Part shown: positions 8,157 to 42,780 of the stretch, one piece after another
How the letters are laid out: each line of letters starts with the position of its first letter
Numbering within the stretch: position 1 is the stretch's first letter
Assembly: GCA_916048095.2 (NCBI GenBank)
Contig: OU696572.1
Span: 7,963,454-8,027,453 of the forward strand
Reading direction: 5' to 3'
DNA length: 64,000 bases
From: Sacculina carcini
Taxonomy: Eukaryota; Arthropoda; Thecostraca; Sacculinidae
Translations under genes and position numbers: made by a program
Notes under the pieces: generated by a model
The model's input: the letters and a program-made list of their open reading frames with translations, nothing else
Told to the model about the DNA's origin: nothing
Databases searched by the model: none

Positions 8157-8168
8157 GCCGAAATAGCT
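8157..8168 (-). other. tRNA-Phe 5'-end complement next to the LTR (element N)
   Basis: On the minus strand the 12 bases immediately after the LTR are AGCTATTTCGGC, the exact complement of GCCGAAATAGCT, the first 12 nucleotides of animal tRNA-Phe. The same 12-mer sits at the same place in H and J, although their LTRs are otherwise unrelated. Confidence 0.8.
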
Positions 8169-8495
8169 TGTAACACGCAGCTTGCAATGGATGAACTCGA
8201 TTATATTTCAATACAACCGGTAACACTCACAAGAACACACCAAACACTTCCACTCGCACAGCACACATATCTCGACTCCCCGTCACTTCATGATACAGTA
8301 CGCGAAACCACATCAGGTGTCATCTTGCACGCACACACTCAACAACTCTCATACTCATACACACACGCTCTGCATATCACTGACATCTCGCACCGACAGT
8401 GTAACACGAGCTGCATCAGCATTCCAGGACCCGTTGCAAAAGCACTGCTTCAGTCTTGCACACACGCACATACATACATACACACATACATGCAT

Positions 8496-8526
<31 letters not shown>

Positions 8527-8540
8527 CACAGCATATAACA
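8169..8540 (-). repeat. 5' LTR of element N
   Basis: Read on the minus strand it begins TGTTATATGCTGTG and ends GCGTGTTACA, directly before the conserved 12-mer. It contains long TA, CATA and CACA simple repeats. Its partner LTR is not in the window. Confidence 0.6.
8447..8530. repeat. CACA/CATA/TA microsatellite
   Basis: A compound simple repeat inside the 5' LTR of N: CACATACATACAT-type units followed by about 13 TA dinucleotides. Reading frames across it (runs of His-Thr or Tyr-Ile) are artefacts. Confidence 0.9.
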
Positions 8541-8548
8541 AGTTATAA

Positions 8549-8743
8549 AGTTAACTCAACGAGACCAACACCTAGACTGCCTGTACTCTATAGCCTGACC
8601 CCGATTGTACCTTGCTGTCATACCTACCTTCCTCTGATTGGTCCATTTCACAATCGTACGATACACGTCACAACATCGCGATACACGTCGCGCCATCTTT
8701 ACAATCGCAATACAGTAAACCGCACATGATACAAGACACTACA
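8549..8743 (-). repeat. 3' LTR (part) of element F
   Basis: Nearly identical to 9729-9923. On the minus strand it follows a purine tract. The outer end is lost where element N was inserted. Confidence 0.8.
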
Positions 8744-9658: not shown

Positions 9659-9923
9659 TGTAGTGTCGGAGCGATGGCGAGCGAATCTGAGAAGTGGCTT
9701 GACTCACAAGTATATTAAAACACAGACAAGTTAACTCAACGAGACCTACACCTAGACTGCCTGTACTCTATAGCCTGACCCCGATTGTACCTTGCTGTCA
9801 TACGTGCCTTCCTCTGATTGGTCCATTTCACAATCGTACGATACACGTCACAACATCGCGATACACGTCGCGCCATCTTTACAATCGCAATACAGTAAAC
9901 CGCACATGATACAAGACACTACA
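9659..9923 (-). repeat. 5' LTR of element F
   Basis: A 265-bp terminal repeat on the minus strand, starting TGTAGTGTCTTG and ending GACACTACA. The primer-site-like TGGTGACGAGGTCAG follows. It matches 8549-8743. Confidence 0.8.
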
Positions 9924-10028
9924 AATATTTAATCAGCATGTCGGTATCGTTTTCAGATGAAATTACTGAACTTGAAATAAATATTTTTGTTTTTCATACT
10001 ATTATCGAATTATCTTTGAAATAAGACA
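9924..10028 (-). mobile_element. hAT-like copy 3, left fragment
   Basis: About 54 bases ending in TTTGAAATAAGACA match the inner part of the hAT-like element at 53635-53690. The matching continuation (GACACTTAAAGATGTAC) is found at 61152. Both pieces share GACA (10025-10028 and 61152-61155), as expected if a large insertion split one copy. Non-coding. Confidence 0.6.
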
Positions 10029-11173: not shown

Positions 11174-11347
11174 TGTCACATATGTATGTAGATATATGTG
11201 TGTGTGTGTGTGTGTGTGTTATGAACGGTGCGTGACGTCACGCGTCACGCCACTATCGTGGGAGTGGCTTGACGGTGCGCACGCGGGGGCTCGGGAGTGT
11301 GGCACAGGGCAGTGTGCAATACATGGTCGTATGATCAACATGTTACA
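11174..11347 (+). repeat. 5' LTR of element C
   Basis: Begins TGTCACATATG and ends ATGTTACA. It contains a (TG)n run and the palindrome TGACGTCA at 11233-11240 (a CRE/ATF-type site), followed by CGCGTCACG. Confidence 0.88.
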
Positions 11348-11359
11348 TGGTGTCAGAAG
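11348..11359 (+). other. tRNA-Leu-type primer binding site of element C
   Basis: TGGTGTCAGAAG directly after the LTR is complementary to the 3' end (CTTCTGACACCA) of leucine tRNA, including the CCA tail. Confidence 0.75.
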
Positions 11360-11441
11360 GGCCCAGTAGATTTGTGAGTTATTTGTGAGTGTGTGTGAGT
11401 GGTGTCGTTTCTCTGTGAGTTTTGTTGTGCGGGTTTCAAGG

Positions 11442-12713
11442 ATGGCAGCTAGACAGCCTCCGGAGCTGGAGTTGACCTCACCTGTGTTAGCGTCGGAGTG
11501 GAATGCATGGAGGAGAGACTGGACATACTTTGCTGCGGCAAAAGAATTGTGCACAAAGCCGGTGGCCGTGCAAGTGGGCACATTTTTCAATTGTGCAGGG
11601 CGGCAGGCTCAAGAAGTGGCGTCTCATTTCAGTTGGACGGAAACGGATGGCTTGGACGCGCTAGTTCAAGAATTTGAGAGGTACTGTGCGCCGCGCAAGA
11701 ACGAGGTGCTCGAGCGGTACCGCTTCTACCAGCGGGTACAGCAGTCGGGAGAAACGGTGAGCGCGTACGTGTCGGCATTGAGAAAACAAGGAGCCCCATG
11801 TAATTTCAAAGATCTAGACAGCATGCTGAGGGACCGGCTAGTGATGGGTATAGCAGATAAGGCGGCCCATCAAGCGCTGTTGCGTGGGACCGAGCTCACT
11901 CTGGAGTCTGCACTGAAAATTGCCCTGTCGGAAGAAGCGGCCAAGCGGGACCAGCAGGTCATCAGCGGCGATGTGGTGGTATCGGCGACTCAGGCCAGCG
12001 TCTGTGAGATCAGTGACATGGCGGAGGTGGAGGCGCGCCAGTGTCGTTTTTGCCGGCGTCGCCACGCGATGCGGCGTGAGCTGTGTCAGGCCTGGGGGCG
12101 TCGCTGCAATGCGTGCGGTCGGATGCATCATTTTGCTCGTAGCGAGGCGTGCACCATGGGTGCGGGTGCATCTGATGGGCAGCAGCAACAACAACAACAG
12201 CAGCAGCAGCGGCCGCAGCCGACAGGAAGAGCGTCCAGCCGGTATGGTCCGAGTCGATTTCACAGTAGAAGAGATGTGAACGTCAATGAAGCGACTGCGG
12301 GGGATTGTCAGGATGTCTTATCCATTGCTGAGGGACATAACTGTAATGACAGTAAAGTATTCAAGACCTTGTTTACAGTTTGTGGTAAACCATTAAGATT
12401 GCTCATTGATTCAGGGTCGGAGACGAATGTTTTGTCTCGCAGTGACTATGTTAAAATTTCAGGTGATGTTGAGTGTACTGATCTGAGACCATGTAAGATG
12501 ATGTTACGCATGTACAATGGTCAGCTTGTGTCGACTGTGGGGAAGGTTACGATTGTCTTAATTAATCGTACGTGTAATTTGCGTCACTCATTGTTATTTC
12601 ACGTGTTGGATCTTGATGTGAAGCCTATTTTGAGCTTGCGGTCGTCGGTGCACATGAACCGCAAGCTTTTTGAGCTTGCGGTCGTCGGTGCACATGAACC
12701 TCATTGCTGTTAA
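11442..12713 (+). CDS. gag: Element C Gag with protease-like end
   Basis: The start is MAARQPPELEL, shortly after the LTR. A gypsy capsid-like domain (EWNAWRRDWTYF, ERYRFYQRVQQSGETVSAYV) is followed by Cys/His-rich sequence (CRFCRRRHAMRREL, CNACGRMHHF) and a CAG/CAA-rich glutamine run near 12180-12210. A retropepsin signature LLIDSGSETNV lies near 12400. It is followed by pol. Confidence 0.8.
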   Translation: MAARQPPELELTSPVLASEWNAWRRDWTYFAAAKELCTKPVAVQVGTFFNCAGRQAQEVASHFSWTETDGLDALVQEFERYCAPRKNEVLERYRFYQRVQQSGETVSAYVSALRKQGAPCNFKDLDSMLRDRLVMGIADKAAHQALLRGTELTLESALKIALSEEAAKRDQQVISGDVVVSATQASVCEISDMAEVEARQCRFCRRRHAMRRELCQAWGRRCNACGRMHHFARSEACTMGAGASDGQQQQQQQQQQRPQPTGRASSRYGPSRFHSRRDVNVNEATAGDCQDVLSIAEGHNCNDSKVFKTLFTVCGKPLRLLIDSGSETNVLSRSDYVKISGDVECTDLRPCKMMLRMYNGQLVSTVGKVTIVLINRTCNLRHSLLFHVLDLDVKPILSLRSSVHMNRKLFELAVVGAHEPHCC

Positions 12714-15537
12714 TGATTGTGACCCCCTTGAGTATGTGCCAAAAGTGCAGGCTGTGACTCAGTCTGACGCAATGTTTGCTAATATGAGGGTTAACGACAA
12801 TGCTCGCGATTACATCGTTTCTCAATATCCAAGTGTTTTTACTAAAGAAGGGGTGGGTCTGGTAGCCTCTGATGTTAATATTGAAACTGATCCGAAGGTG
12901 AATCCCGTTGTAGAAATCGTTTACAGAGTTCGTATTCACCTGCGTGAAAAATTGCGTGTCAAGTTGAGTCAACTGGAGGAGCAGGGTATTCTAGTACGCG
13001 TAACTCAGCCAACGGATTGGGTGTCAAATTTGGTGATTGTACCGAAACCCGATGGCGATATCCGAGTGTGTATCGACCCGAGAACCCTTAATAAAGCAAT
13101 AAAGCGCGAGCACTATCCTACGCCAACTTTTGATGAAGTGAGTTATCGTCTATCAGGCGCAAAAGTATTCACCATGCTGGATGCTCGATCGGCTTTTCAT
13201 CACGTTGGTCTGTCAGAAAAATCATCGTTGCTGTGTTGTTTTCATACCCCATTTGGTAGATACAGATGGACTCGTTTGCCATATGGAGTGTCGTGTGCGC
13301 CAGAAATTTGGCAACGCTTGATACATGAGATGGTAGCGGATCTAGAGGGTGTAGAGGTAATAGCCGATGATTTTATAGTATATGGAAAAGGTGAGACCCG
13401 CGCAGAGGCAATTGCCGATCATGATGCAAAATTGCGAGCATTTCTTGACAAGGCTCAGAAATGTAATTTACGACTAAATCAGGACAAATTACGTTATCGT
13501 GTTCAGGAAGTTTCGTGGTTGGGTCATGTGGTAAGCGAAGCAGGAATTAAAGTGAGTCCTTCTAAAGTGGAGGCTGTAGTTAAATTTCCGGCGCCAAGCA
13601 ACAAAATCGAGCTGAAGCGTTTCATGGGTATTGCATCCTATCTCTCGCGATTTATTCCCGAATTTTCAACGGTAACAGCTCCGATGCGTCATTTGCTCAG
13701 TCAAAAATACGATTGGTTCTGGAGTGACTCGTGTCAGACTGCGTTTGAGCGAATCAAGCGATTACTAACAGAGGCTCCTCTGCTGGCGTTTTATGATAAG
13801 GATGCCCCGGCGACTGTTCAGTGTGATGCGTCTTCATCCGGTCTGGGTGCTGTGCTGCTGCAGAAGGGGCGTCCAGTGGTGTACTGTTCCAGAGCGCTGA
13901 CCGAGTCGGAGAAAGCTTACTCGCAAATAGAGAAAGAGTTGCTAGCGGTTACATTTGCAATGAAAAGGTTAGACCAGTTTGTATACGCTCGGCACGTAAC
14001 AATTCAGACGGATCATTAGCCGCTGGTTGCCATTCGTGAAAAGCCTCTTGTGGAAGCACCGCTTCGCTTACAGAGAATGTTGATGACCTTGCAACGATAT
14101 CAATTTGAATTAAAATACACACCTGGATCGGAAGTTCCTGTGGCTGATGCTCTGAGCCGTGCACCGATGTCGAACACTCTTGAGAGAGCGACGTGGGCGG
14201 TGGAAATGAATGAACTCAGTCTGTCTGATGAGTTAGCGGTAACGGATGCGCGCTTGGAAAAATACAGAGAAGCGACGTTGGCAGATCCAGGCTTACAAAA
14301 AGTGCGTGAGTACGTAATAAGTGGGTGGCCGGAACAACGAAGCAGTGTCGATCAGGTAGCGGCCCCTTACTGGTCAGTGAAACATTAGTTGTCTGTTCAG
14401 AACGGTCTGGTTTACAAGTCAAACAGGCTGGTCATTCCATCGTCAATGAGACTTGAATTGTTAAATAGGTTTCACAGAAGTCACATTGGAGTGGCTTCAA
14501 TACTCAGGCTGGCCCGGGATAATGCCTTTTGGCCCGGAATGACGGCAATGGTGAGGGACAAGATATTACGATGTGAAACATGCATTTCATACCGTCCCCA
14601 ACAGCCTCCAGAGCCATTAACGCCGCACGAGGTGCCAAGTCGGCAGTGGCAAAAAGTTGGCACGGATATATTCGAATTTCGCGGTGCTAATTATCTCGTT
14701 TTAGTCGATTACTTCAGTGGATATATTGAAGTTGAACGACTGTCGCATGTAACAACGACGGCTGTGACAAATATTCTCTCCCACCAATTTGCTCGTTATG
14801 GTGTGCCGGAAGTACTTGTGTCTGATAACGGGCCACAATTTGCCAGTCTTGAATTCAAAGAGTTTGCGTCATTTGTGGATATGTTGCATATAACGTCAAG
14901 TCCGAGGTATCCGCAGTCGAATGGTCGTGCAGAAAACGCTGTCAAGCTAATCAAGGGGATCTTCCGAAAAGCGCACGATACTCGGCAGAATCCCATGTGG
15001 GCGCTCATGCTTTGGCGAAATACACCAAGTCAATATACAGCCTTCTCGCCGGCGCACGTTATGTTCGGACGTCGGTGTCGCACTCTGATGCCCACAACCC
15101 GACGTTCATTAGAGCCGGATCCTCCCAAAGGGGTTCGGGACAATTTGCTGAATAGCAAAGCCGATCAAAAACATTATTATGATCATCAGGGAGTGCGGTC
15201 ATTGCCGCCGATCCGTCCAGGGACAGCAGTTCGGGTAAAACGGCCGGATCAAAACTCGTGGTCACGGGGAGAATGTGTAAGGAAGCTACCCTATAAGTCG
15301 TATTTGGTAAAAGTGGGTGGCACACTGTATCGACGAAATCGCCGTCATATTTTGATGGCAGGGGAAGATAATCCCGTGCAGTCGACCCGTAGCTACCAGA
15401 TGATCCAAGGGCTTCCCAGCCCTGAGGTCCTCTCGTCCAACAGGTCAAACACAACAGGCAATGAGGATCGTGTGTTACCGCGGCGGTCTATGCGTATTCG
15501 TCGACCGCCGGCGTATTTGAATGATTATGTGCCGTGA
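12670..15537 (+). pseudogene. Element C Pol region: RT, RNase H, integrase
   Basis: RT landmarks are WVSNLVIVPKPDGDIRVC, MLDARSAFH and ADDFIVY. RNase H shows QCDASSSGLGAVLL and the IQTDH end. The integrase has RSHIGVASIL to CETC zinc ligands and a core with GTDIFEF, SDNGPQFAS and NGRAENAVK. The order is Ty3/gypsy. Broken fossil with a small number of breaks. Confidence 0.82.
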
Positions 15538-15672
15538 ACGCGTGTTATGCAATGCCATTTCATGTGGTATGTATGTTGTGACTAACTTGGAGGGGGAGGT
15601 ATAACGTGTGTATGTATGTGTGTGTATTTTATTTCATGTTTTATATAGGTTGTGATTGACTTGGAGGGGGGG

Positions 15673-15838
15673 TGTCACATATGTATGTAGATATATGTGC
15701 GTGTGTGTTATGAACGGTGCGTGACGTCACGCGTCACGCCACTATCGTGGGAGTGGCTTGACGTGGTGCGCACGCGGGGGCTCGGGAGTGTGGCACAGGG
15801 CAGTGTTCAATACATGGTCGTATGATCAACATGTTACA
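15673..15838 (+). repeat. 3' LTR of element C
   Basis: Follows the purine tract TTGGAGGGGGGG. It matches 11174-11347 except for a shorter TG run and a few bases. TGACGTCA is at 15722-15729. Confidence 0.88.
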
Positions 15839-16300
15839 TATATGTGTATTATGTGTATATGAGCGTTGTCTAGTGCTGCATGTTCTCGACAAAAGCACAT
15901 TTTGCGCAACGCTCAAGTAGACCCACTCAGCGCGGATTTATGACAGTATCGGACAACTTCCGGTGAGCGCGCTTATTGTCCGATACTCAGATAAATCCAA
16001 AACACACTTAAGCACGCGCATTGCGCTGTTGGGCACCGTGCATCGCCCATCGCGCCTCGTATTCCGACTTGTTTTCGCTCGCCTGATTTGTGACTTTTGT
16101 TCGCTCGAATCGATTGTTCTGCCTCGTCATTACTGTGCTACTGCTTACTGTGTTGCGTGTCCGTGCGAATATAGCGACCGATAAAACTATTCGCGTCGTT
16201 TTGCACGACATAATTAAGCGTCCTTTTAAGGACGGACTGTAAAGCGAATTCCACGCACCGTTGCCTTTTTAAAGGCAAATTGTATTGGCGTAGCCATGGC

Positions 16301-16840: not shown

Positions 16841-17196
16841 TGTGGCGCCTGTGCAAATGTAGGCCAAAAACATTTGCCCATACACCACAAACACACACTC
16901 TACCAGCGCTTCAGCGGTACGCGTCCCGGAGGTGTATGTCCCCTGCACACAGACATACACCACATACACACACATTCTCAACCACACACGCCAGCGACGT
17001 ATAAAACACCGTCACACACACTCTTCCACAACCAGTCCACAGAACTCACCCTGCTGCTGGCTCGCTCTGTTGTTAACCATTGCTTGTGTTTTGTTTCGCC
17101 ACCGTAAGTAACCGCCTCTGAACTGTGATCTCTTGTGAATATATATTGTGTTGTCGTCCCCCATTGTGTCGTTCGCCAGACCCGGGGGTTGCAACA
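16841..17196 (+). repeat. 5' LTR of element G
   Basis: Starts TGTGGCGCCTGTGC and ends GGTTGCAACA. TATAAAA is at about 16998. It is nearly identical to 21266-21633, which carries a small duplication of GGGACCC near its end. Confidence 0.88.
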
Positions 17197-17199
17197 AAG

Positions 17200-17218
17200 T
17201 GGTGACCCCGACGTGATC
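17200..17218 (+). other. tRNA-Trp primer binding site of element G
   Basis: TGGTGACCCCGACGTGATC complements the 3' end of animal tRNA-Trp over about 18 of 19 bases. tRNA-Trp priming is known for the CsRn1 group. Confidence 0.85.
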
Positions 17219-17280
17219 ACTTCATTGAGTTTATCGGTTATAGCTCTGATTGTGGTTGTTTTGCCATTACGCCGCACACT

Positions 17281-18117
17281 ATGTCTTTTGACAAGCCCGC
17301 CGTGGGAGGCCCGCCCCCGCCATTCGTTGAAGACAGCCCACACATCTGGGTAATTCAGCTCGAGCTTCACTTCAAGCGCACAAAAATCAGCGATGAAGAA
17401 ACGCGGTTCCAGACGGCAGTTTCTATGCTGCCAGCGCAACACGTCATGGAATTCATCGACCTCATTCGGCAGCCTCCTGACGACTGCTACACACAGCTGT
17501 GCGCCGCGCTGCAGTCTCGACTCGGCAAATCGGCGGAGGAAAAACTCAGGTCAGTGTTAAGCGCTCAAGAGCTAGGTGACCGCAAGCCCACACAGTTTCT
17601 GCGTCATTTGCAGGAATTAACTTCGCCGTATTTGAAAGACGGCGAGTCTGAACTGGTACGGCAGATCTTCATGAAGGCGATGCCTGAAGCAGCAGCTCCG
17701 TTTCTCCAATTCCTGCCGGCAGACACAACTCTAGAAACACTTGCAGGTACAGCCGACCGAGTGATATCATCACTGCCGAAAGCGACGGCTCTCATAAGCG
17801 CCGTAAGTGGCCGCACACGCAGAACAGAGCGCCCGTGCGAAACTACAGGCGGGAGCTGCACACAATGTACGGCGAACGCAAGTGAACTAGCGGCCGTCAA
17901 ACGTCAGCTGGACGAAATTCAGCGCCATCTGCAGCGACTATCCGTGGAACCACGTCGCCCTCCTCTTCTACCAAGCGCGTACAGAGGCGTTCACAGTCTC
18001 GAGGTCGCTTGGCGGAGCTCGACGACAACGACTCAAACTCAGGTCAAGTGTGCTGGTATCACAAACATTTCGGCGCTAGAGCCAAAGCCTGCGTCAAACC
18101 GTGCACGTTTGATTTAA
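17281..18117 (+). CDS. gag: Element G Gag
   Basis: Starts MSFDKPAVGGPPPPF. Its middle has the landmarks of CsRn1-type Gags: WVIQLELHFKRTKI, LGDRKPTQFLRHLQEL and RQIFMKAMPEAAAPFLQFLP. The CHCC zinc motif is encoded near the 3' end of the region. Pol follows within a few bases. Confidence 0.75.
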   Translation: MSFDKPAVGGPPPPFVEDSPHIWVIQLELHFKRTKISDEETRFQTAVSMLPAQHVMEFIDLIRQPPDDCYTQLCAALQSRLGKSAEEKLRSVLSAQELGDRKPTQFLRHLQELTSPYLKDGESELVRQIFMKAMPEAAAPFLQFLPADTTLETLAGTADRVISSLPKATALISAVSGRTRRTERPCETTGGSCTQCTANASELAAVKRQLDEIQRHLQRLSVEPRRPPLLPSAYRGVHSLEVAWRSSTTTTQTQVKCAGITNISALEPKPASNRARLI

Positions 18118-18124
18118 ACTTGCA

Positions 18125-21100: not shown

Positions 21101-21255
21101 CAAGAGACCGCTGTATCCATCTTCCAGCCGCAATCTGCCTCCAGCAAAACTCCTGCGCGAAACTGCTCCGGATCAAGAATCCCGGTTCTGCGTACGCGTA
21201 TCACTCGTTCCGGTCGTGTTGTCCGCCCCCAGTCCGTTTTTCTCCTTGAACTGGA
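18125..21255 (+). pseudogene. Element G Pol region: protease, RT, RNase H, integrase
   Basis: The protease has LIDTGAQYSIL. RT landmarks are [29 protein letters not shown] and [11 protein letters not shown]. RNase H has GVFTDASNFGIG. The integrase has HNLSHPG to CTHCQTC and a core with IDIVGPYCKGQ, SDRGSQFTS and [12 protein letters not shown], then a GPYRV-type C-terminal motif. Closest relatives in the window are K and M. Fossil with few breaks. Confidence 0.85.
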
Positions 21256-21265
21256 GGGGGGCTCC

Positions 21266-21633
21266 TGTGGCGCCTGTGCAAATGTAGGCCAAAAACATTT
21301 GCCCATACACCACAAACACACACTCTACCAGCGCTTCAGCGGTACGCGTCCCGGAGGTGTATGTCCCCTGCACACAGACATACACCACATACACACACAT
21401 TCTCAACCACACACGCCAGCGACGTATAAAACACCGTCACACACACTCTTCCACTCAACCAGTCCACAGAACTCACCCTGTTGCTGGCTCGCTCTGTTGT
21501 TAACCATTGCTTGTGTTTTGTTTCGCCACCGTAAGTAACCGCCTCTGAACTGTGATCTCTTGTGAATATATATTGTGTTGTCGTCCCCCATTGTGTCGTT
21601 CGCCAGACCCGGGACCCGGGACCCGTTGCAGCA
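21266..21633 (+). repeat. 3' LTR of element G
   Basis: Follows the purine tract CTGGAGGGGGGCTCC. It matches 16841-17196 and ends CGTTGCAGCA before the ATAT duplication. Confidence 0.88.
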
Positions 21634-23059: not shown

Positions 23060-24880
23060 CGCCCTCCTGATGTCCACATCATCTTTCGTAGTCACTAAGC
23101 CACGCCGGTGATCGTCGTACCCGTGAAGATCTGCTTGACAGCAATAGTCCTGTTTCTGTTGCATCGCTGTTTCCACCATCATCCGTATCCGCATGCAGAA
23201 TTTCAGAAGTCTGCTCACGATCCCCTGGTGCATCGTCTGTCTCCTCGTCATCGTCACTTTCATCCGTTGTATCCAATAAACGGCGCACATCAAGTATATG
23301 ACGAGACACACCGTCAACCTCAATGTTATTTCCTGAAATAACGCCAGTTACTCTGCCTTGCTGCCAACGCGACGTACACTTGCCGTCTGCCGGTTTCACC
23401 AGAACAGTTTCACCCTCACGAATTCTGGTACTAGTGGTGTCATCCAATGTCGTTGGTTCTGCGCGAGGATGCCGCCATTGATATGAATGAATCATAGCAC
23501 TTGGTGAATTAACGCGACCCTCGTTGCCAGTCGCGGCCAGGTTGTAAAAAAACACAGCCTCCAATGGTGATTTTCCGGTGCGAGCTGCCATACGCTTAAT
23601 TGTTCGGTGGTTTCTCTCAACCACACCGTTCCCTGCTGGTCTATATGCAGCTCGGTACCTCAAATTCACCCACCACTTACGACACAACTGAGACACTTGG
23701 TAGGAACGGAAAGTTGCACTGTTGTCAAGCAGAATCTCGGACGGCGGACCTCGTTCCCTAAAAACTTCCTCTAAAATTCTGACAACATCTCTCGAGTTTT
23801 CAGACTCTATCCGACGCCACAGAGCAAAACGGCTTGGACCACAATCAACAATTGTTAGGAAACATTTGCCGTTCCAGTGAGTTGTGTCAACAGACAACCT
23901 CAACCAGTTTTCACTCACAGTCAGCACACCCGGCTCATGCTGTACTGGAGCTGGGTCGATACTGCGACATTGAGTGCAATGCTTCACACAATAATCCGCC
24001 TCTTTCCTTGTCACATCCGGGTTGACGAGCTTGGCCAGCTGCAGGGTTCTCTCCACACCGAAGTGGTGATCATTGTGCAGAGTGCTTACACTCACATTGC
24101 ACACCGGTGTTGGACTATTGCTGACACGTTTCTTGTTCAACCATCGTTTGTCTACCCTAGTCAGGGCATCTGCCAGGTTCTTACGTGATTCCACTAACGT
24201 CACATTAACTTTGAGTCCAAACTGCTCAACAACTTCTTGAAATAGGCCTAATCGTCGTCTCACTAACATTTCCGACATGCCCGCAACCTTAACTCTCTGT
24301 TCACCTCGCAAAGCCGACTTCAACCAGCTGGAAACCGTTGCCGAATCAGTCACAACATCCAAATTCTTTATCTGCCATTTTAGAGCCAGATTAATACCAC
24401 GTATAGCTGCGTCAAGCTCAGCGATGTTGATGCGACTCAAATCAGACGGTTTTCTTAGCCAAGCGCCATCTTCCACTATTTTTCCCTCAATCTCAATGGC
24501 AACTCCAGTGGCCAGATTACTAGCATCACTCCACACTTTTCCAGAAACCACATCAAACGGCACCGACCATGGTCCTCTCACTGGATCACACATTCGGACT
24601 TTCCTCAACACATCCCGCAACATTCCGTGCGCCTCCCCACCAATATCATCATCCCACGACTTTCCTTCACACACTCTTTTCACGTAGCTGCACGCCACAC
24701 GGAGCCACCCGCACACAGGGTAGTGCCCAATGAGACGACCACACACAGAAAACAACGTCCGCCGACTCATTCTTGTCTCTTCGATATCTGGCAATTCATT
24801 TCCACGCTTGAACTCCAGTCGACCATTACTTCCTCGTTCCAACTTCAATATTGCGTGTATCAGACGACGGGTAGAATCAC
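22821..24880 (-). mobile_element. Fragment I: RNase H-integrase-3' LTR of a B-type gypsy element
   Basis: On the minus strand about 24870-23079 encodes RNase H (VWSDASNLATG, NIAELDAAIRG, VTDSATV) and integrase (HHFGVERT, CTQCRSIDPAP, SVDTTHWNG, DNSATFRS, NGVVERNHRTIK). A purine tract ATCAGGAGGGCG then precedes an LTR at 22821-23059. The layout is the same truncated set of parts as element B. Gag, protease and most of RT are absent. Fossil. Confidence 0.8.
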
Positions 24881-28767: not shown

Positions 28768-28770
28768 ATT

Positions 28771-31808: not shown

Positions 31809-31967
31809 TGTGCGTTAGTATATTAGAGTGCTGCATATCTAGCCAGAGCGGTGTGAGTGAGTGTCGTATTCGCGTGCATATGTATGTCTGTGTGCGAGTG
31901 TGTGCATGTTTGCAGCGTCAGCTTGCTGACTCGGCTCGACTTGCATTTGAGCGTTGTGGCAGGTGGT

Positions 31968-32009
<42 letters not shown>

Positions 32010-32135
32010 AGTGTGTGCATTTACATGTGAGTTGAATGTGTGCGTTGTCTGTGGAAGGATGGTGTTTGATTGCTGAGCGCTGGTGCATGAAAATACAGGT
32101 GAAACGTGGTGCTGCTGTCATCTGACTCTACTACA
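31809..32135 (+). repeat. 5' LTR of element H
   Basis: Starts TGTGCGTTAGTATA and ends CTCTACTACA. It contains a (GT)n run at about 31970-32003. Confidence 0.88.
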
Positions 32136-32147
32136 AGCTATTTCGGC
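32136..32147 (+). other. tRNA-Phe 5'-end complement next to the LTR (element H)
   Basis: AGCTATTTCGGC lies directly after the LTR end and is the exact complement of tRNA-Phe nucleotides 1-12. Bases beyond it differ between N, H and J, so only these 12 are conserved. Confidence 0.85.
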
Positions 32148-32164
32148 TTTTTACTGATTCAATC

Positions 32165-32971
32165 ATGAGTAATCCTGATCAATCGAGTGGATCGCAGTCA
32201 AATTTTGATCTCAAGCTCATCCCCGAGTTTGACGGCTCCGGGAAACAAGATGTTTCGGAATGGCTGGAAAAAGTAGAGCTCGTATGTCAGCTCAAAAATG
32301 TGGACGGTGTCGCAACTGTCATTGCGCTACGCGTGACAGGAGGGGCGTTTGCGGTGTTTCAGCAGATGAACCCCCTCGATCGGGTTAATTGCGACAAACT
32401 AAAGGCTGAGTTGAAAGCTGCATTTGGCGCGGACCGGTTTACCGCCTATGAACAGTTCACGCGCCGCAAACTGTACTCTGGCGAGTCACCGGACATATAT
32501 CTGGCGGATTTGAGACGTTTGGCTGCGCTATTCGGTGGCGTACCAGAGACAGCGATCACGTGCGCGTTTGTTGCAGGGCTGCCTTCCAATGTGCGTCAGC
32601 TTTTGAGGGCGGGCTCACGCGTGGAAGTCCTGGACACTTATCAAGTTCTGGCTCGTGCTCGCATTCTGTTGCAGGAGGACCCTCAGGCGTCATTTGTGCA
32701 ATCAGGACTTGGTGCTCGAACAGCGACCGTGCCAATCAACAGGAATACTCAGCTACGTTGTTTTGCTTGTGGCGGAACAGGACATTTTGCCAGATATTGT
32801 CGGGATGGAGCTGTGAGCTCTAGAGGAAGAACAATGAGGAGAGGCGCTGTGGCCCGTGGCAGTGTGGTGCGGTGTCATCGCTGCAATGAAGTCGGACATT
32901 TCTCTCGAGAGTGTTCGGGAAACGACCAAGGGGAGAGGCCGTTTGCGCAAGCGTCTTCTCCCGCTCTCTAA
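32165..32971 (+). CDS. gag: Element H Gag
   Basis: 268 residues from MSNPDQSSGSQSNFD. A capsid-like domain (IPEFDGSGKQDVSEWLEKVEL, FTRRKLYSGESPDIYLADLRRL) is followed by two CCHC knuckles, CFACGGTGHFARYC and CHRCNEVGHFSREC, near 32758-32925. It overlaps pol by about 60 bases in another frame. Confidence 0.9.
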   Translation: MSNPDQSSGSQSNFDLKLIPEFDGSGKQDVSEWLEKVELVCQLKNVDGVATVIALRVTGGAFAVFQQMNPLDRVNCDKLKAELKAAFGADRFTAYEQFTRRKLYSGESPDIYLADLRRLAALFGGVPETAITCAFVAGLPSNVRQLLRAGSRVEVLDTYQVLARARILLQEDPQASFVQSGLGARTATVPINRNTQLRCFACGGTGHFARYCRDGAVSSRGRTMRRGAVARGSVVRCHRCNEVGHFSRECSGNDQGERPFAQASSPAL

Positions 32972-35900
32972 ATTCTGCGCTTCCTACTGTTTCAATGTGT
33001 GTTAACGGCGAGCGGACGACAGCATTGGTGGACACTGGATGTTCTATTTGTGTAGCTCATGTGTCTATCTGCAGTGAATTCAGACCCACAGAAACAAGAA
33101 TTGTGACAATGTCAGGGCAGCGGCAAAGGTGCAAAGGGATTGGAAATGTGAGAGTATGTATTGATGGAGTGAATGGGGTGCGACTGTTGAAAGTGTTGGT
33201 GGTGGCCATTCGACCTTTAGGTTTCGAGTTTATCATGGGGATGAACGGTGTTGAAATGTTGGGAGGTGTGACGGTCAGCTCCTCGCGTGTTGTTCGGTTC
33301 GGAGCCCAAGGTCTTGAGGTAGTGAGTCGTCCTACGCTAGGGGTGTGTCTCGGTGCTAGAGATAAGGTTCCAGATGAATGTGACGGTGATTTGAGCCGTG
33401 CAGTTCATGAGCACTGCGCTGAAAAACGGGATGGCAAGTCGAACAGAACGGACTGTGCTCCAGTCTCGCATGCAAAAATTGTTCGGATTGAAGAGAAATA
33501 TTTTGTTGTGGTGTTTGACCCTGTCAAACGCACGTGGACGGCTGAGTGGAAGTGGTCAGATGCTGGAGAGCCCGGAGTGTTGTACAATCGTGTCGGGCAG
33601 TATTCTATGTCGCACGATGTCCGGTCTGCATTTGAGGAGGAACTGGAAGAGTGGATACGTGAGGAGTGGCTGATTCCATATGATGAGCGGAAGCATGGTC
33701 CTGCAAAAGGTCTTGTCCCGCTGATGGCGGTGCCACAAAGAAACAAAGTGAGACCAGTGATGGATTTAAGGCAAGTGAACGAGCACATTGACGTACACAC
33801 TAGAGACGCTGATGTGTGCGCAGATCGAGTGCGTGAATGGAGACGACAGGGCAGGAACGTGTCAACGCTTGATTTGAAAAAAGCATACTTGCAGATTCGG
33901 GTGTCTGATAAGATGTGGCCATATCAAACGGTGATTGTGAAGGGTCAAAGATATTGCCTAACGCGTCTGGCGTTTGGATTGAACGTCTCACCGTTAGTCA
34001 TGAGAGTTGTGCTGCACTTTGTGTTGTCAGCCGACCCCGAAGTTGAGAGAGGCACTTCGGCTTACGTCGACGATATCTTGGTGAATGAGGATGTTGTCAA
34101 AGTGGAGCGAGTTGAGAGTCACTTGAACCGATATGGACTCGTTTGCAAGGCAAGTGTGAAGGTGACGGATGGTGCGCGACTCTTGGGAATGAGAGTCTGG
34201 GGAGAGGGTGGTGCGCTGTCGTGGAGGAGAGACGGGGAGGTTTGTGAAATGCCCGAAATGATAACAAGAAGATCTGTGTTTTCGTTTTGTGGGAAATTTG
34301 TCGGTCACTACCCCGTGTGTGGATGGCTGAGGGTGGCAGTAGCTTTTATCAAGCGGCTCACGAATGCGCACACGAAGGGCTGGGACGATCCAGTTGTGAA
34401 CGATCACGTAAAGACTTGTTTAAAGGAGGTGCTGAGAGTTGTAAAGGATAATGATCCAGTTTGTGGCAGATGGAATGTGGAAGGACACGAGGCGAAGGTG
34501 TGGGTTGACGCGAGCTCGCTCGCCATGGGTGTTCGTCTTGACGTTGACGGTAACATAATTGAGGATGCAAGTTGGCTGAGATCTGACAGTGCGACGCACA
34601 TCAACATGGCGGAATTAGACGTACTGATAAAAGGACTGAATATGGCCTTGGTGTGGAAGATGCGGAAAATCGAAATTGTTACCGATTCTTTGACTGTTCA
34701 TCGATGGGTCACTGATTGTTTGTCAGGTAAGAGACGACTGCGAACGAAGGCTGCAGGAGAACTGCTGGTGAGAAGGAGACTTGACATTGTGGCCGCGTTG
34801 GTGGAAGAATACAACCTGGATCTTTCAGTTACGTTAGTGGCTTCGGCACTAAACAGAGCGGACGGCATGACGCGCGTGCCTCAACGGTGGCTGAAGCTAT
34901 CAACTGACTGCTTCAGTGACTCAAAAACGTCGTTCGTCGGGTGCGGAATTGCTGAGTGTGAAGACGATGGGTGCTCGTCAGCAGAGGTGATTCGTGATGT
35001 TCATCATCTGATGGGACATCCTGGAGCTCGGAGGACGTTACAGTGTGTCAGACGGACGCGACGGAATGTGAGCTCGCGAGAGGTACGGGAGGCTCTAAAG
35101 CGGTGCCAAATATGTCAATCGGTAGATCCAGCGCCGGCAAAATGGAGATCTGGTCATCTGGAGGTGGAGCGCGTGTGGCAACGCGTTGCTATCGATATTA
35201 CCCACTGGAAAGGATTGTCGTGCTTGACCATGGTGGATTGTGGACCGTCACGGTTTGCAATATGGCGGCCGTTGCGCATGCAAAACGCCGCGTGTGTCAT
35301 CGAGCAACTTGAGAGTGTTTTCTGCGAGCGTGGACCTCCGGAAGAGCTTTTCGGCGATAACGATACGGCTTTCAGAAGTAAGCTCTTCGCGGCTTTTGCT
35401 GAAAGATGGGGAGTCAGACTGAGGTTCAGGTGTGCGTATGTACCAAGTGGTAACGGGGTGGTGGAGCGTAACCATCGCACCGTGAAGGTTATAGCGGCTA
35501 GAAAAGGGTGTTCTCTGGCAGAGGCAGTATACTTGTATAACGTGACGCCGCGTGGTAGCGGATCAGACAGTTGTCCAGCCGCTGAACTGTACAAATACGC
35601 AGTCAGAGTGCGAGGCATTGATAAGGTTTCAACGCTGACGGGCGAATCAGAAGATTGTGTGTACAAGAAGGGAGACTTGGTGTGGGGGAAACCACCAAAC
35701 GTGCGATGTGATCAGAGATACGGTAAGGGTGTGGTCACTGGTGTGGTTTCGCATCAATCTGTGGAGGTGGATAACGTTCCGCGCCACGTGCGCGATCTGC
35801 GACCTCGTGATCAGTCTCATAACGAGGCTGAACAACCAGAAGTTCCAGATGACAACGCGGATGATGAAATGTTCATCACTCTGCCTCATCGACGGAGTCG

Positions 35901-35982
35901 CGAGGAATGTGACGCTTTATCGGGTTTTCAGCCCCGCAGATCAGCGAGGCTGATTGAGAAGCGGCAGCGCGCCGTCCGATGA
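32911..35982 (+). CDS. pol: Element H Pol: protease, RT, RNase H, integrase
   Basis: About 1020 residues. The protease has LVDTGCSICVA. RT has RPVMDLRQVNEHI, TLDLKKAYLQI and AYVDDILVN. RNase H shows VWVDASSLAMG, NMAELDVLI and VTDSLTV. The integrase zinc region is HHLMGHPGARRT to CQICQSVDPAP, with a core of AIDITHWKG, GDNDTAFRS and NGVVERNHRTVK. B, I and J share the unusual MVDCGPSRFAIWR-type integrase strand. Confidence 0.9.
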   Translation: MFGKRPRGEAVCASVFSRSLNSALPTVSMCVNGERTTALVDTGCSICVAHVSICSEFRPTETRIVTMSGQRQRCKGIGNVRVCIDGVNGVRLLKVLVVAIRPLGFEFIMGMNGVEMLGGVTVSSSRVVRFGAQGLEVVSRPTLGVCLGARDKVPDECDGDLSRAVHEHCAEKRDGKSNRTDCAPVSHAKIVRIEEKYFVVVFDPVKRTWTAEWKWSDAGEPGVLYNRVGQYSMSHDVRSAFEEELEEWIREEWLIPYDERKHGPAKGLVPLMAVPQRNKVRPVMDLRQVNEHIDVHTRDADVCADRVREWRRQGRNVSTLDLKKAYLQIRVSDKMWPYQTVIVKGQRYCLTRLAFGLNVSPLVMRVVLHFVLSADPEVERGTSAYVDDILVNEDVVKVERVESHLNRYGLVCKASVKVTDGARLLGMRVWGEGGALSWRRDGEVCEMPEMITRRSVFSFCGKFVGHYPVCGWLRVAVAFIKRLTNAHTKGWDDPVVNDHVKTCLKEVLRVVKDNDPVCGRWNVEGHEAKVWVDASSLAMGVRLDVDGNIIEDASWLRSDSATHINMAELDVLIKGLNMALVWKMRKIEIVTDSLTVHRWVTDCLSGKRRLRTKAAGELLVRRRLDIVAALVEEYNLDLSVTLVASALNRADGMTRVPQRWLKLSTDCFSDSKTSFVGCGIAECEDDGCSSAEVIRDVHHLMGHPGARRTLQCVRRTRRNVSSREVREALKRCQICQSVDPAPAKWRSGHLEVERVWQRVAIDITHWKGLSCLTMVDCGPSRFAIWRPLRMQNAACVIEQLESVFCERGPPEELFGDNDTAFRSKLFAAFAERWGVRLRFRCAYVPSGNGVVERNHRTVKVIAARKGCSLAEAVYLYNVTPRGSGSDSCPAAELYKYAVRVRGIDKVSTLTGESEDCVYKKGDLVWGKPPNVRCDQRYGKGVVTGVVSHQSVEVDNVPRHVRDLRPRDQSHNEAEQPEVPDDNADDEMFITLPHRRSREECDALSGFQPRRSARLIEKRQRAVR

Positions 35983-36122: not shown

Positions 36123-36281
36123 TGTGCGTTAGTATATTAGAGTGCTGCATATCTAGCCAGAGCGGTGTGAGTGAGTGTCGTATTCGCGTACATATGTATG
36201 TCTGTGTGCGAGTGTGTGCATGTTTGCAGCGTCAGCTTGCTGACTCGGCTCGACTTGCATTTGAGCGTTGTGGCAGGTGGT

Positions 36282-36318
<37 letters not shown>

Positions 36319-36443
36319 GTGTGTGCATTTACATGTGAGTTGAATGTGTGCGTTGTCTGTGGAAGGATGGTGTTTGATTGCTGAGCGCTGGTGCATGAAA
36401 ATACAGGTGAAACGTGGTGCTGCTGTCATCTGACTCTACTACA
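36123..36443 (+). repeat. 3' LTR of element H
   Basis: Follows the purine tract AATCAGGGGAGAG and matches 31809-32135 almost base for base, with a shorter GT run. Confidence 0.88.
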
Positions 36444-36528
36444 AATAGTTTTATATAACTGGGGGGAAGTGTAGTGTCTGGTAACTCAGCGCGACAAAGT
36501 GTGCGCGGATGGGGGAATTGTGAGTGAC

Positions 36529-37464
36529 TTTTATTATTATTATTAATTACAGGCAAATCCAGTAGCATGGGAAGAGTGCAAGCACTATTACCACCCTAAG
36601 GTGGCCCCATGTACCGGAAGCGCCCAAAAGATTCAGAGAGAAAAAGAGTTCGAAGAGAATAAAGTCTAGAAAGAGAGTTGGAAAGAAAATAATATATAAA
36701 TAACAATAAATAATAAGCCATCATCCGATAACAATCCATAATGTCACTCCGCCCACGTTCCTCAATAAATAATATAATAATAACAATAAATATGTGATTC
36801 ATTAAAAAACAGCCATCAATAAATAAGAATAAATATTAATAAATAAGTAATAAATAACAATCAAGAACAATACATATGATTCAAAAAAGAAACATCCAAC
36901 AATAAATATAAATATGATTCAATAAGTAACAACAACACAAATAAATATGATTCAATAAACAATAACACCAATAAATATGATTCAATAAACAACAACAACA
37001 ATAAATATGATTCAATAAACAGCAACAACAATAAATATGATTCAATAAACAACAACAACAATAAATATTATTCAATAAACAGCAACAACAATAAATATGA
37101 TTCAATAAACAACAACAACAATAAATATGACTCAATAAACAGCAACAACAATAAATATGATTCAATAAACAACAACAGCCAACACTGAGTAAAAGTATAA
37201 TTTAATAAATAACAACAACCAATAATAAATAGTAATAAATAGAGAGTAAAATAGGAATAAATATAAATAAATAGAAAATAAATAACAATAAGCATGAATA
37301 AATAACAATAAACATGAATAAATATACAATTAATAAGACTCAACAGTCAATTCCGCTCTTTCAGTAGCATTTCATTTACTTTGGCCTTGAATTTGTTCAA
37401 ATTGTTCTGCGAGAAAGCCTCCTCCTTCAGCGTGTTCCAAGTAGACACAGTGGCCGGAAGAAAG
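36529..37464 (-). mobile_element. 3' end of a second LINE, inserted in element D's LTR
   Basis: The minus strand first encodes FLPATVSTWNTLKEEAFSQ and NKFKAKVNEMLLKERN-stop, the standard C-terminal end of a CR1/Jockey-type LINE. A long A/T-rich 3' UTR follows, then GGTACATGGGGCCACC, and it ends in (TAA)n against the LTR at 36529. It is 5' truncated, as LINEs usually are. Confidence 0.75.
36905..37165. repeat. ~30-bp minisatellite in a LINE 3' UTR
   Basis: About eight to nine tandem copies of AATAAATATGATTCAATAAA followed by CAACAACAAC-like bases. Reading frames through it (Cys-Cys-Leu-Leu repeats) are not genes. Confidence 0.88.
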
Positions 37465-37516
37465 CACATGGGTTATGAACATGAAGTGTTTATGAGTTAT
37501 GTTTTTTCAATACATT

Positions 37517-38894: not shown

Positions 38895-39655
38895 TGTAGA
38901 ATTTGGATTTGGGTCCAATTCTATTGGGCTAAATGTGGCCTGTGTTCACCGACACGCGACCCGGCAATTTCCCTTCTTGAAGCAGGGCAACCCACGCCTC
39001 TGCTAGCCTGTTTAGGCCTGGGCTCAATCAGGACCGGTGTGCTCCGGGATCGTACTGCACCCGGAGCGAGCACTCTCACCTCCAGTGGGTGAGAGGCCTG
39101 AGCCAAGGGGAGAGAGGCAAGGAAGAAGGAAGAGACGGGTCCGTGGAATGCAATACTGGTAATACCGGAGCTACCAGCGTAAACTACCACCTATTACCCA
39201 ACGAAAGGAGAGGGATAGCACAACACTTTCACTGTATCACGTATCACTGTATTCACTTCACAAAGTTGGACTGGCTGCCTTGACGAAGCAAGGCATCGAA
39301 ATTTACCCCATAATGGTGCTTAACTTGAAACGGTCTCATGCAAGGCATAATGTTCACATAGTAAATGCACAAGTTTACACACATATAAATATTACACGTA
39401 GCACAGCGACCAGGATTTGAAGCGTACATATATAGCAATGTAAAATAGTACAACGTGTGGCAATCAATTGTATAATTAATATAAAATCATGAAAAACATT
39501 TGCTGTATATCGTGCTATCAGACGTACTTATGCTACGCTATCGCACAGTCACAGTCCATAAGGTCGAAAATCGCGCATACAAACAGTGAATATGTACACA
39601 TGGCGCCATCTAGCGGTAGTAGTACGGCGCAACAGTTATGGACTGGGTCGCTACA
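38895..39655 (-). repeat. 3' LTR of element M
   Basis: 761 bp, minus strand from TGTAGCGACCCAGTCC (after the purine tract GACGGGGGGTAG) to CAAATTCTACA. Its inner 100 bases match 57641-57741 with about one difference. Confidence 0.82.
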
Positions 39656-40147
39656 CTACCCCCCGTCAGAGTTGACTAGGAAGGAGACTCGATACCGTTT
39701 GGGAGTTCGCACAATTCGTTCTACACGAGTCCGCAAAATGGATGGTGGTAGTATGGATTCAGTTGGTGGTGATAACTGTCGTTTATGTGTTTGCCTGTTT
39801 CGTTGTTGTGAAGGTTGTGTTTGTTGTTGATCTTGTGGTCGTTTAGATTGTGGTGACACTTGTGATGATCTGATGATTTGTGGCCGTGTTGTCGTTGCAC
39901 TACTGGCCGGTTGTGTCCCGCGCATCTTCAGCACAGGATCTGGTCCCGTGCATGGCTGTGACAGGAACAGTTTAGTTGCTGATTTCGGATCACTGGTGTG
40001 TGACGTGCATGGTTCGACGTTTTCAACAACGGCCGGGATGACTCGATCGATGGAGACTGTGTCTGTTTTCGAACGGCGCTGAATTGTAATAGTCTTATCC
40101 GTCCGGCTGACGACTCGAAAAGGACCGTCGTAGGGGCAATCAAGCGG
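39656..40147 (-). pseudogene. Element M Pol, C-terminal piece
   Basis: The minus strand encodes CPYDGPFRVVSRTDKTITIQ, the GPY/F-type end of integrase, then a Ser/Gln-rich tail ending near RTPKRYRVSFLV. This mirrors the tail of K. It lies between the 3' LTR and hAT copy 2. Confidence 0.82.
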
Positions 40148-42511
40148 AGTATGACTAGAGATGCGACCCCAAAAAAAACCGAGGTTTTTTTTAAAAAAAA
40201 CCACGACCAAAAAAAACACGTTTTTTTTTAGAGTCATGCAAATAATTCAAATTATTAAAAATAATTCAATAATAAATTATCAAATTCAATATATTTAGGA
40301 TGTTAAATGAATTATTTTTATCAACACATGGTTTAATCATGCTATTAGTGACCCTATCAAATCGAATTATCATTAAATATGCACAATATAATTGTTATAA
40401 TATGTCTGAAAGCCCTAATATTATTGTTTGCACGGTACTGTGCGGCACTTCTATGTACAGTACAGTTTTACATTCAATTATTGAGTTAATCATTGTGTAA
40501 AAAAGCAGGGTTTGAGAACCGTTTTTATGCTAAAATCTGAAACTGTTAAAAAAAAACAACAGGTGGCATAATTTTTTATTATTTTTTACACATTAACTTT
40601 TTCCTGCCAGAAATCAACTACGTTGGTTATAATAAGTTTCATCATTTCATTCAGCAGATCAATTATTTGCAAATATTAGAGTACAAACACTGCAAATATT
40701 TACACAAATACTACGAATATGCAAACAAACTTAGTGTCCCTAATGAGTCTACGAATAAAAGCGGGTCGCAGTGGCAACGGACCAGAAAAACGGACCAGAA
40801 AAACGGACAATATTTTCGTGTAGGAAAAAAACCACTGAGGAAATATATTTGATGTTCAAAAAGGTATTTTAACTCAAATAACTACATCAAATAAACCATC
40901 ATCCATAAAACCAGTTCTAAAAACAGGTTACTAATAAAAAAACAGTTAATTTGGTTCAACGTTCCTTGATCTGCCGCCAATTTTTTTCGCAATCTCTACA
41001 TCTACGAAAACAGTTTTTCAAAAAAATATATTTTGAAAAAAACCGTGGTTTAAAAGAACAGTTTAAATTCGTTTAAATGTTCGTTTTGTTCAATAATAAT
41101 AATAATAAAGTGGTTTAACCAGCCGCTTATACGTACCAGCAGGCTACTTGCTATACAAAAGGTATTTGAACGTACATCAATCAAATCTATCTTACATAGA
41201 TACTGTTTTAGAAAACATTGTTTCATTAAAAAGCGTTAGTTTAAATGAACGTTTGTCAAAAAAAACACTTGACCAACCAATTAGCTTGTCTTTTTCTGCT
41301 GCCAACATTTTCTGGACCTGTACATTAATAAAACGAATTTAAAACCAGTTTGAAAAACATCATTGCATTTTTTCATAAAAAACATTGTCGCTGATGGGCA
41401 TGATGCCGCTAGCGATCAGTCCCAGTGGCTGTGGCAGCAGGTGTGCCGTGAACCAGTGGCGTAGTGTACGAGTGACGGAGGGTGTGAGACCCAGTCACTC
41501 ACTAACGCCAACTGCAGCGCACTGAAACGACAGGGTGTGCCCTGTCTGTCGACCCTAAATCGACTACCCGACAGCGCGACGCTCGGTATAAAAACCTTCC
41601 GTCTTGCTAAGAGACGTCCGAGCTGGGAGTGCACCGCTAAGTGACACTAGCCAGACTCGACGGTTTAAAGCGAACGTCTGATGCCTCAGAATCAAATGTG
41701 CTCAAGCCCACCGCTATGGGTGTCTGTCTCGGAGGAATAACCGGCTACGGTATTCAGTCCAAGGCAGGCGGCAGAGCACAATCTATCCTTGGCAAAACGC
41801 TGTGAGGGCGATGTGGTCTTTAAAAAGACCGAAATGTATATTGCGTAGGTTAACTCGCTAATTTTACAGGGAGCGGGAGCGGTACCGTGGAGACCAATAA
41901 AACTCAGAGCCGACGACGTGAACGAGACCTTTATTGCCGAAAGTGCACGCTTTATATACCGCACGTTGTAACCGTACGGTGTGGTGTTACACGTGACGTC
42001 ACTGCTACCGTGTGCAACATGATGAATGTGTTTGTTTATGTGTGTGTATTTATGTTTATGTTTATGTTATGTGTTTGTAGGCGTGTGTTTGTGTATGTGT
42101 GTGTGTGTGTTTGTCTGACGCGCATGCGCGTCTAGTGATGCAAAAAAAACGTTTTTTTGGTTGCGGTTTTTTTTGCAAAAAAACATGTTTTTTTAGGGTT
42201 TTTTTTGTTTTTTTTGTTTTTTTTTAGAATTAGCCCCAATTGTCATCGGATGTTAGATTGTAGTACATAGAAATGAGTTCAATTGATGTTTTGTACATCT
42301 TTACGTGTCTTATTTCAAAGAAAATTTGATAATAGTATAAAAAACAAGAATATTTATCAATAAATACCTAAGGAGACTGTTTGAAAGTGCATCCGGGTCC
42401 GGTGGTTAAGTTTTTTTCATTGAGAAAACCCATGTTTTTAAAGATGGTTTTAATTATGTGGAAATTTGAAATAATTTGTCAGCATAACAAAACAAATTCA
42501 TTGAATAATCA

Positions 42512-42768
42512 TGATAGAGTTGATTAAAGAGTCAGCAAGCTACTGTGGTAAAGAGCGCGTGTGCATCGCTGTGCGATACCGCGTTTCAAGTAACGGCGTC
42601 CCCATGAGACAACGTTAGGTGCGATGTCCTTGTCAAGGCCAAAGGCGAGCAGTGTTTGTTCGGTGATCGGCGGTGATCGTGCGTGCGCTGTCTGTGCGTT
42701 GTGATTTGTGTGACATAGTCTGTGTGTGTTACTATTTGTGTGTGTTTATATATACAGTCTGTCTTACA
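42512..42768 (+). repeat. 5' LTR of element J
   Basis: 257 bp from TGATAGAGTTGATT to GTCTGTCTTACA. Confidence 0.9.
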
Positions 42769-42780
42769 AGCTATTTCGGC
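42769..42780 (+). other. tRNA-Phe 5'-end complement next to the LTR (element J)
   Basis: AGCTATTTCGGC starts at the first base after the LTR, as in H and N. The flanking LTR ends (CTTACA here, CTACTACA in H, GTTACA in N) share little beyond the ACA end. Confidence 0.85.

Follow-up and report, generated by a model that had tools for sequence, protein, structure and literature searches.

Which RNA primes reverse transcription in long terminal repeat (LTR) retrotransposons whose 5′ LTR is followed, from the very next base, by the 12-mer AGCTATTTCGGC? The question is raised by elements H, J and N in a 64,000-nucleotide stretch of the Sacculina carcini genome (GenBank assembly GCA_916048095.2, contig OU696572.1, positions 7,963,454–8,027,453 of the forward strand; hereafter the window), where a sequence-only reading had noticed the 12-mer and proposed that it pairs with the 5′ end of tRNA-Phe. 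Judging from the comparisons described below, the 12-mer is probably a primer-binding site for a 5′-terminal fragment of the host tRNA-Phe.

Conservation of the 12-mer after the LTR

The junctions were read base by base. In element H, AATAG is followed by the LTR (TGTGCG...CTACTACA) and then by AGCTATTTCGGC, with AATAG again after the 3′ LTR; in element J, AATCA is followed by TGATAG...GTCTTACA and AGCTATTTCGGC, with AATCA again after the 3′ LTR (a 5 bp duplication in each). Both LTRs end in ...TACA and the 12-mer starts at the very next base. Element N has the same junction (GTGTTACA and then the 12-mer); its second LTR was sought and not found, N ending near position 7125 at the LTR of element B. 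A motif search recovered the three exact copies at the coordinates previously reported for H, J and N (Table 1), and 12 matches with at most two mismatches were obtained in the window versus 3.93 expected. The seven-base remnant described for element B proved to be a degenerate copy that is slightly longer, AGCTATTCGCG; a genomic site with an LTR end like that of element B (L138) carries the exact 12-mer. The window holds five copies of this clade, named here after its Pfam domain DUF7047, N being placed in it by its junction alone as it has no reverse transcriptase (RT). Among the four with a 5′ end the motif is exact in H, J and N and degenerate in B. No primer site was found at the fifth copy (24222..24833), which looks 5′-truncated.

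A scan of the 43 contigs (264.4 Mb) of the host assembly for exact AGCTATTTCGGC gave 1005 + 1016 = 2,021 sites versus 2 + 3 = 5 for the reversed control. The motif is preceded by ACA at 924 + 920 = 1,844 of the 2,021 sites (0 + 0 in the reversed control). LTRs were checked at 25 sites from the window and 20 fetched loci, all of contig C1. An LTR match was present at 16 of the 25 sites in a first comparison, and at 13 of these 16 the LTR ended no more than one base away from the motif. With a stricter script, a second LTR was found downstream at 17 of 25 sites, and the 3′ LTR ended at ACA in 14 of the 17. LTR pairs of the form TG...CA with a matching target duplication (4–6 bp allowed) were found in H and J and, by the script, in 11 of the 17 paired elements (ten of 5 bp and one of 4 bp); the duplication of J was missed by the script and was read by eye. 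The length is about 4.3–4.7 kb in H, J and several other members.

For the analysis of constraint, the flanks of 43 distinct motif sites were clustered with the motif masked, yielding 14 clusters mutually dissimilar at E < 0.001 (the largest with 21 sites). Using one representative per cluster (n = 14), the information content was 1.47, 1.85 and 1.47 bits over the ACA that ends the LTR (positions −3 to −1), 0.43 bits at +13, 0.29 bits at +16 and at most 0.12 bits elsewhere to +32. The 12 bases in between are fixed by the selection of sites on the motif, and the result is the drop in information at both edges.

A motif-independent sample was obtained by searching the genome with the RT domain of H. 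Of 3,932 first-look candidates 106 matches were scored (56–100% identical, mostly stop-free), and 901 bases of 5′ region were fetched for 20 of them, chosen across identity bands. This check of the LTR ends of related elements, suggested by the sequence-only reading, gave the exact 12-mer at 17 of the 20 loci and a copy with one mismatch at two (AGTTATTTCGGC and GGCTATTTCGGC). The sample spans the H side of the clade, all 106 matches being at least 56% like H. Families further from H, with RT identities of 43–45% (L011, L015, L021, L022 and L023; J, 44%), come from motif-chosen loci or from the window.

Several motif-bearing copies are near-identical and young, and the clade is large and apparently recently active. 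A 12-mer that is merely undiverged through shared recent ancestry would fit such copies. However, among motif-bearing loci the RT proteins are only 38–56% identical to those of H or J (44–62% different; compared without L028, the RT of which lies on the other strand), and the 12-mer is unchanged while the LTRs and leaders are unalignable across clusters; recent ancestry is extremely unlikely as the explanation. The earlier claim that the motif is under constraint between unrelated flanks is borne out.

At five loci (L012, L013, L018, L025 and L028) an internal part of about 680–715 nt was observed between LTRs, the first of which is again followed immediately by the 12-mer. These short elements are too small for gag–pol and are probably mobilized in trans. 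The leaders of L029, L031, L034, L036 and L038 resemble theirs by eye.

Candidate primers and alternative signals

The 5′ end of fly tRNA-Phe was taken as GCCGAAATAGCTCAGTTGGGAGAGC from the Northern probes given in excerpts of two papers (PMC7038984, PMC6542536), and the same first 22 bases occur in a PCR primer in an excerpt of PMC10505166, for which human cells were deduced from the study subject. The tRNA-Phe 5′ sequence is GCCGAAATAGCTCAGTTGGGAG in Drosophila and human, and its nucleotides 1–12 are complemented exactly by the 12-mer, in agreement with the sequence-only reading. The right edge of the motif falls exactly on nucleotide 1. The complementarity typical of half-tRNA primers, to the anticodon arm, was not found, the match being to nucleotides 1–12 of tRNA-Phe. 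This complementarity suggests tRNA-Phe as the pairing partner. From nucleotide 13 onward (CAG) the tRNA cannot pair with the ACA of the LTR, so that it would have to end or be cut at nucleotide 12.

The primer would then be the 5′ end of the host tRNA-Phe, GCCGAAAUAGCU (nucleotides 1–12), with its 3′ OH at nucleotide 12 beside the terminal A of the LTR, and the end of U5 would be the first part copied in minus-strand synthesis. By the usual course of reverse transcription, the plus strand copying the primer would run off at tRNA nucleotide 1, which would explain why conservation ends after exactly 12 bases. The cut after nucleotide 12 may precede annealing, so that a 5′ tRNA fragment serves as primer, or may be made on the duplex itself by the RNase H of the element. 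We propose the second route only tentatively: full-length tRNA-Phe would be recruited by the RT, which would open the acceptor and D stems for pairing with the 12-mer, and a nick by the RNase H of the same enzyme between nucleotides 12 and 13 would create the primer in place. This would constitute a fourth priming class. If true, it would be a Tf1-like reaction carried out in trans on a host tRNA, relied on by a whole Gypsy-like clade with protein relatives in crustaceans, Trichuris and Trichinella.

Self-priming of the Tf1 type, with the 5′ end of the transcript folding back onto the 12-mer, was weighed next to tRNA-Phe. A non-tRNA site likewise follows the LTR in Tf1-type elements (PMC4600332, in excerpt), and with G–U pairs allowed an 11/12 match occurred in four of 25 upstream regions of 450 nt. 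These matches lie at differing places, however, and 18.6% of shuffles reach at least 11. No exact complement of the 12-mer was present in the 450 nt upstream of the 25 sites, where the best ungapped Watson–Crick match was 6–9/12 and the longest complementary run from the primer 3′ end was 6; over 300 nt upstream of 51 sites the longest run averaged 5.33, versus 5.36 in shuffled sequences. Sense-strand GCCGAAATAGCT was found in none of the 17 LTR-paired elements. With its complement in the LTR absent or at chance level, self-priming was rejected as very unlikely, in line with the doubt that the sequence-only reading had expressed about it.

A site for a full-length tRNA 3′ end (TGG-type, 0–5 nt after the LTR) was not present, the first 12 nucleotides being AGCTATTTCGGC. 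TGG does occur within +13 to +24 at 22 of 51 sites; it takes seven different positions, from +14 to +22, and stands inside ATGG in 20 of the 22 cases. The lack of a fixed place and the ATGG context argue against a hidden tRNA 3′-end site and uphold the earlier statement that these elements have none of the TGG type. The 12-mer might instead be another cis-acting signal (for packaging, dimerization, translation or the integrase/LTR end), with priming by something else. Constraint by itself is no proof of priming, and the downstream TGGs could be counted in favour of such a signal. Against it, those TGGs are scattered, the 12-mer occupies the exact position of a primer-binding site, immediately adjoining the LTR, and no further strongly conserved block follows to +32. 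In those paired elements whose downstream bases were read, no copy of the motif follows the 3′ LTR, so it is no LTR-end signal. A cis-acting signal of another kind is quite unlikely on this evidence.

A hairpin site of the GalEa kind (a palindromic 9-mer with an inverted copy nearby) was also considered and rejected. Downstream complementary runs averaged 4.39 versus 4.75 in shuffled sequences (51 sites), the longest being 9 (L002) versus 8 in shuffles. In L002 (1501–1530) the motif is directly followed by CAAATAGCTT, a 9 nt inverted copy of the site together with the last LTR base; this is a single case.

The primer might also be another host small RNA containing GCCGAAAUAGCU, the match to tRNA-Phe being coincidental. 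All remaining features would be identical under that explanation, which gains from the failure to find a host tRNA-Phe gene (see below). A 12/12 match ending at nucleotide 1 of a conserved animal tRNA has, however, a probability of a few in a million by chance (a hand estimate, about 45 tRNA 5′ ends in 4^12), and the places with GCCGAAATAGCT...TGAA look by eye like LTR ends, among the matches listed (about 100 of 122). We consider another small RNA rather unlikely.

The host tRNA-Phe gene was searched for in the assembly with six exact patterns and one 73 nt DNA query and was not found. One pattern had a single place, L082, in which ARAGORN detected no tRNA; three places fetched for another pattern were all non-tRNA; a further pattern had seven places, as many as its reversed control (seven), judged from the printed letters alone; and the GCCGAAATAGCT...TGAA pattern gave the LTR ends mentioned above. 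In an Rfam tRNA search, 63 of 15,013 candidates were scored, giving 51 matches, and 30 loci were cut out. Of the 19 host tRNA strings obtained from these, none was tRNA-Phe and none matched the 5′ motif at 12/12, the best reaching 9/12. Genes for tRNA-Met, Lys, Cys, Thr, Ala and Arg were readable in the assembly, tRNA-Phe being found by none of the searches. At L125 (851–1350), the locus of a tRNA-Met gene, there is a run of exactly 500 N, possibly an assembly gap.

The failure to find this gene weighs against tRNA-Phe as the primer, the more so as a piece of initiator tRNA-Met was readable at 15 sites. Since tRNA-Phe is needed by every eukaryote, the host gene is probably unassembled, otherwise absent from the sequence searched, or of unusual sequence, and an unusual sequence would weaken the case. 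Other results tell against it as well. At one of the 20 RT-chosen loci (L091, the RT of which contains two stops) the 12-mer was absent from the 901 bases fetched; a paired LTR was not found by the stricter script within the stretch searched at eight of the 25 sites; and pairing of tRNA-Phe nucleotides 13–31 with the leader or LTR did not exceed that in shuffles. To our knowledge, a primer of 12 nt would also be shorter than any half-tRNA or full-tRNA primer. As the host gene was not found, we hold the assignment of the 12-mer to a 5′ tRNA-Phe fragment at probable.

Class of the elements and surrounding features

From their domains, the 12-mer elements appear to be Gypsy-like LTR retrotransposons with DUF7047. 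The order RT–RNase H–integrase was identified with Pfam in one open reading frame (ORF) in H and in two in J, two of the matches falling slightly below the Pfam cutoff (RVT_3 of H, 20.8 bits versus 21.6; RVT_1 of J, 27.1 bits versus 29.6). The RTs of H and J matched solved RT structures weakly (best, 7ksf_A with E = 0.0019; 7kse_A, 0.047; murine-leukaemia-type, at least 0.2). All of 12 aligned proteins share E326 and D350 in the RNase H region, where D291 is nearly invariant; we take these three to be the RNase H catalytic residues. Other Gypsy-like elements of the window match the usual RNase H models PF17919/PF17917, and the two whose junctions were read (11192–15839 and 16841–21613) have TGG-type sites, ...GTTACATGGTGTCAGAAGGG and ...AAAGTGGTGACCCCGACGTG; within the window the 12-mer therefore goes with the DUF7047 clade.

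Membership of Copia/GalEa, suggested by the size and the TACA ends, was rejected from the Pfam domains RVT_1, DUF7047 and rve, which stand in the Gypsy order; metazoan GalEa moreover has TGGTAGCAGAGC, unlike the 12-mer. Troyka was rejected for its CG...CG ends and 3 bp duplications, as given in the excerpted source.

The pol protein has 492 relatives; Trichuris, Trichinella, Macrobrachium, Petrolisthes and Amphibalanus are named among the 120 listed. One pol protein of the clade, P0071, carries the label of a Pseudomonadota metagenome bin, which probably reflects animal contamination. Searches of the viral-contig and genome-contig collections yielded 6 and 24 pattern stretches, respectively, none of which was confirmed as a relative by tblastn. 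A further 33 viral-contig stretches with the 15-mer were unlike the 12-mer elements by eye, over about 45 bases preceding and 63 following each match, and were taken as chance matches.

Table 1 Coordinates of the 12-mer elements in the window
Feature	Position	Strand	Basis
Element H 5′ LTR (TG...TACA)	31809..32135	+	Direct repeat families D6/D10, script, base reading; target-site duplication AATAG 31804–31808 before it
Element H 12-mer AGCTATTTCGGC, proposed primer-binding site	32136..32147	+	Motif search, base reading
Element H gag ORF, CCHC zinc knuckle	32126..32971 (stop-to-stop)	+	Pfam zf-CCHC 2.7e-9
Element H pol ORF: RVT_1, DUF7047, RVT_3 RNase H, H2C2, rve integrase	32890..35982	+	Pfam
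Element H 3′ LTR, then AATAG	36123..36443	+	Repeat detection, script, base reading
Element J 5′ LTR	42512..42768	+	Repeat D4, base reading; AATCA 42507–42511 before it
Element J 12-mer, proposed primer-binding site	42769..42780	+	Motif search, base reading
Element J gag ORF, CCHC knuckles	42714..43505 (stop-to-stop)	+	Pfam
Element J pol ORF part 1: RVT_1, DUF7047, RVT_3	43400..45556	+	Pfam
Element J pol ORF part 2: integrase core	45502..46542	+	Pfam
Element J 3′ LTR, then AATCA	46667..46947	+	Repeat detection, base reading
Element N 12-mer, proposed primer-binding site, after ...GTGTTACA	8157..8168	-	Motif search, junction reading
Element N gag-like ORF, no Pfam match	7339..8226	-	ORF list, Pfam
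Element B (outer) degenerate primer-binding site AGCTATTCGCG after LTR ...GGATTTTA	4989..4999	+	Base reading
Element B (outer) truncated pol, DUF7047 + RVT_3/RNase H	4990..6315	+	Pfam; H RT residues 188–391 match 5044–5637
Fifth clade copy, RT/RNase H part	24222..24833	-	H RT match; residues before 189 unmatched

Elements B and N are part of a nest at window positions 1–8226: a Gypsy-like element (78–4922) lies within the 5′ LTR of element B, the 3′ LTR of which adjoins the cut end of element N. Close downstream of element H is a tandem repeat of nine copies with a 30-base period (36853–37237), and a 21-base repeat forms two clusters, 475 bases apart and in register, at 60457–61076. A calreticulin gene was located at 62008–63201 on the minus strand (PF00262, 1.6e-78). 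Its relatives include barnacle proteins of Amphibalanus (77% over 87%) and Pollicipes (74% over 96%), strong matches that suggest a crustacean host; the top score was obtained with a Phthorimaea record (67% over 57%), and several metagenome proteins reach 75–77%.

Comparison with known priming systems

The primer types described in excerpts of PMC6317226 and PMC5371799 are the complete tRNA, the half tRNA of the anticodon region and the self-primer. Full-tRNA, anticodon half-tRNA, self-primed and unexplained sites are treated in excerpts of PMC6317226, PMC5371799, PMC10886601, PMC5445492, PMC5006619, PMC4600332 and PMC6934838, and no report of a primer site for the 5′ terminus of a tRNA was found among the listings and excerpts of the open-licence literature searched. 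If a whole clade uses a site for the very 5′ terminus of a tRNA, this would add a primer type and would explain the apparent absence of a primer site in standard annotation of such elements. It would also open to experiment, in an abundant family, the long-standing question of how a retroelement obtains a primer 3′ OH from within a tRNA, and it would assign 5′ tRNA-Phe fragments a concrete molecular role.

Gypsy-like DUF7047 pol proteins of Trichuris, Trichinella, Macrobrachium, Petrolisthes and Amphibalanus have the identical domain set. These relatives, available as protein records, share at most 65% identity over the RT–RNase H region among the 120 listed.

Half-tRNA primers have been reported in Copia elements, with both the cut and the pairing in the anticodon region (PMC6317226, PMC10886601, PMC5371799, in excerpt). 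Drosophila copia, Ty5, plant Osser/Bryco/Bianca and fungal Copia/Helenus, as described in these excerpts, share with the 12-mer elements a 5′ tRNA primer, a 3′ OH arising by internal cleavage and a site after the LTR. They differ in that they belong to Copia and pair through the anticodon region, whereas the 12-mer elements are Gypsy-like and would pair with nucleotides 1–12.

Tf1/Sushi elements resemble them in having a short non-TGG site that pairs with an RNA 5′ end requiring cutting at the end of the duplex; the self-primer site of Tf1 is 11 nt. The partner of the 12-mer would, in contrast, be a host tRNA acting in trans, and a complement in the LTR is not above chance.

The Conserved Hairpin Site of fungal GalEa is without a match to a tRNA 3′ end (PMC5445492, in excerpt) and is likewise a short conserved block in place of a primer site. 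Unlike it, the 12-mer is not palindromic beyond AGCT, has an inverted downstream copy at only one of 51 sites (the 9 nt copy in L002) and shows a clear tRNA match. The mode proposed for the 12-mer would be a variant of tRNA-derived priming, and would form a class of its own if cutting in place by RNase H were demonstrated.

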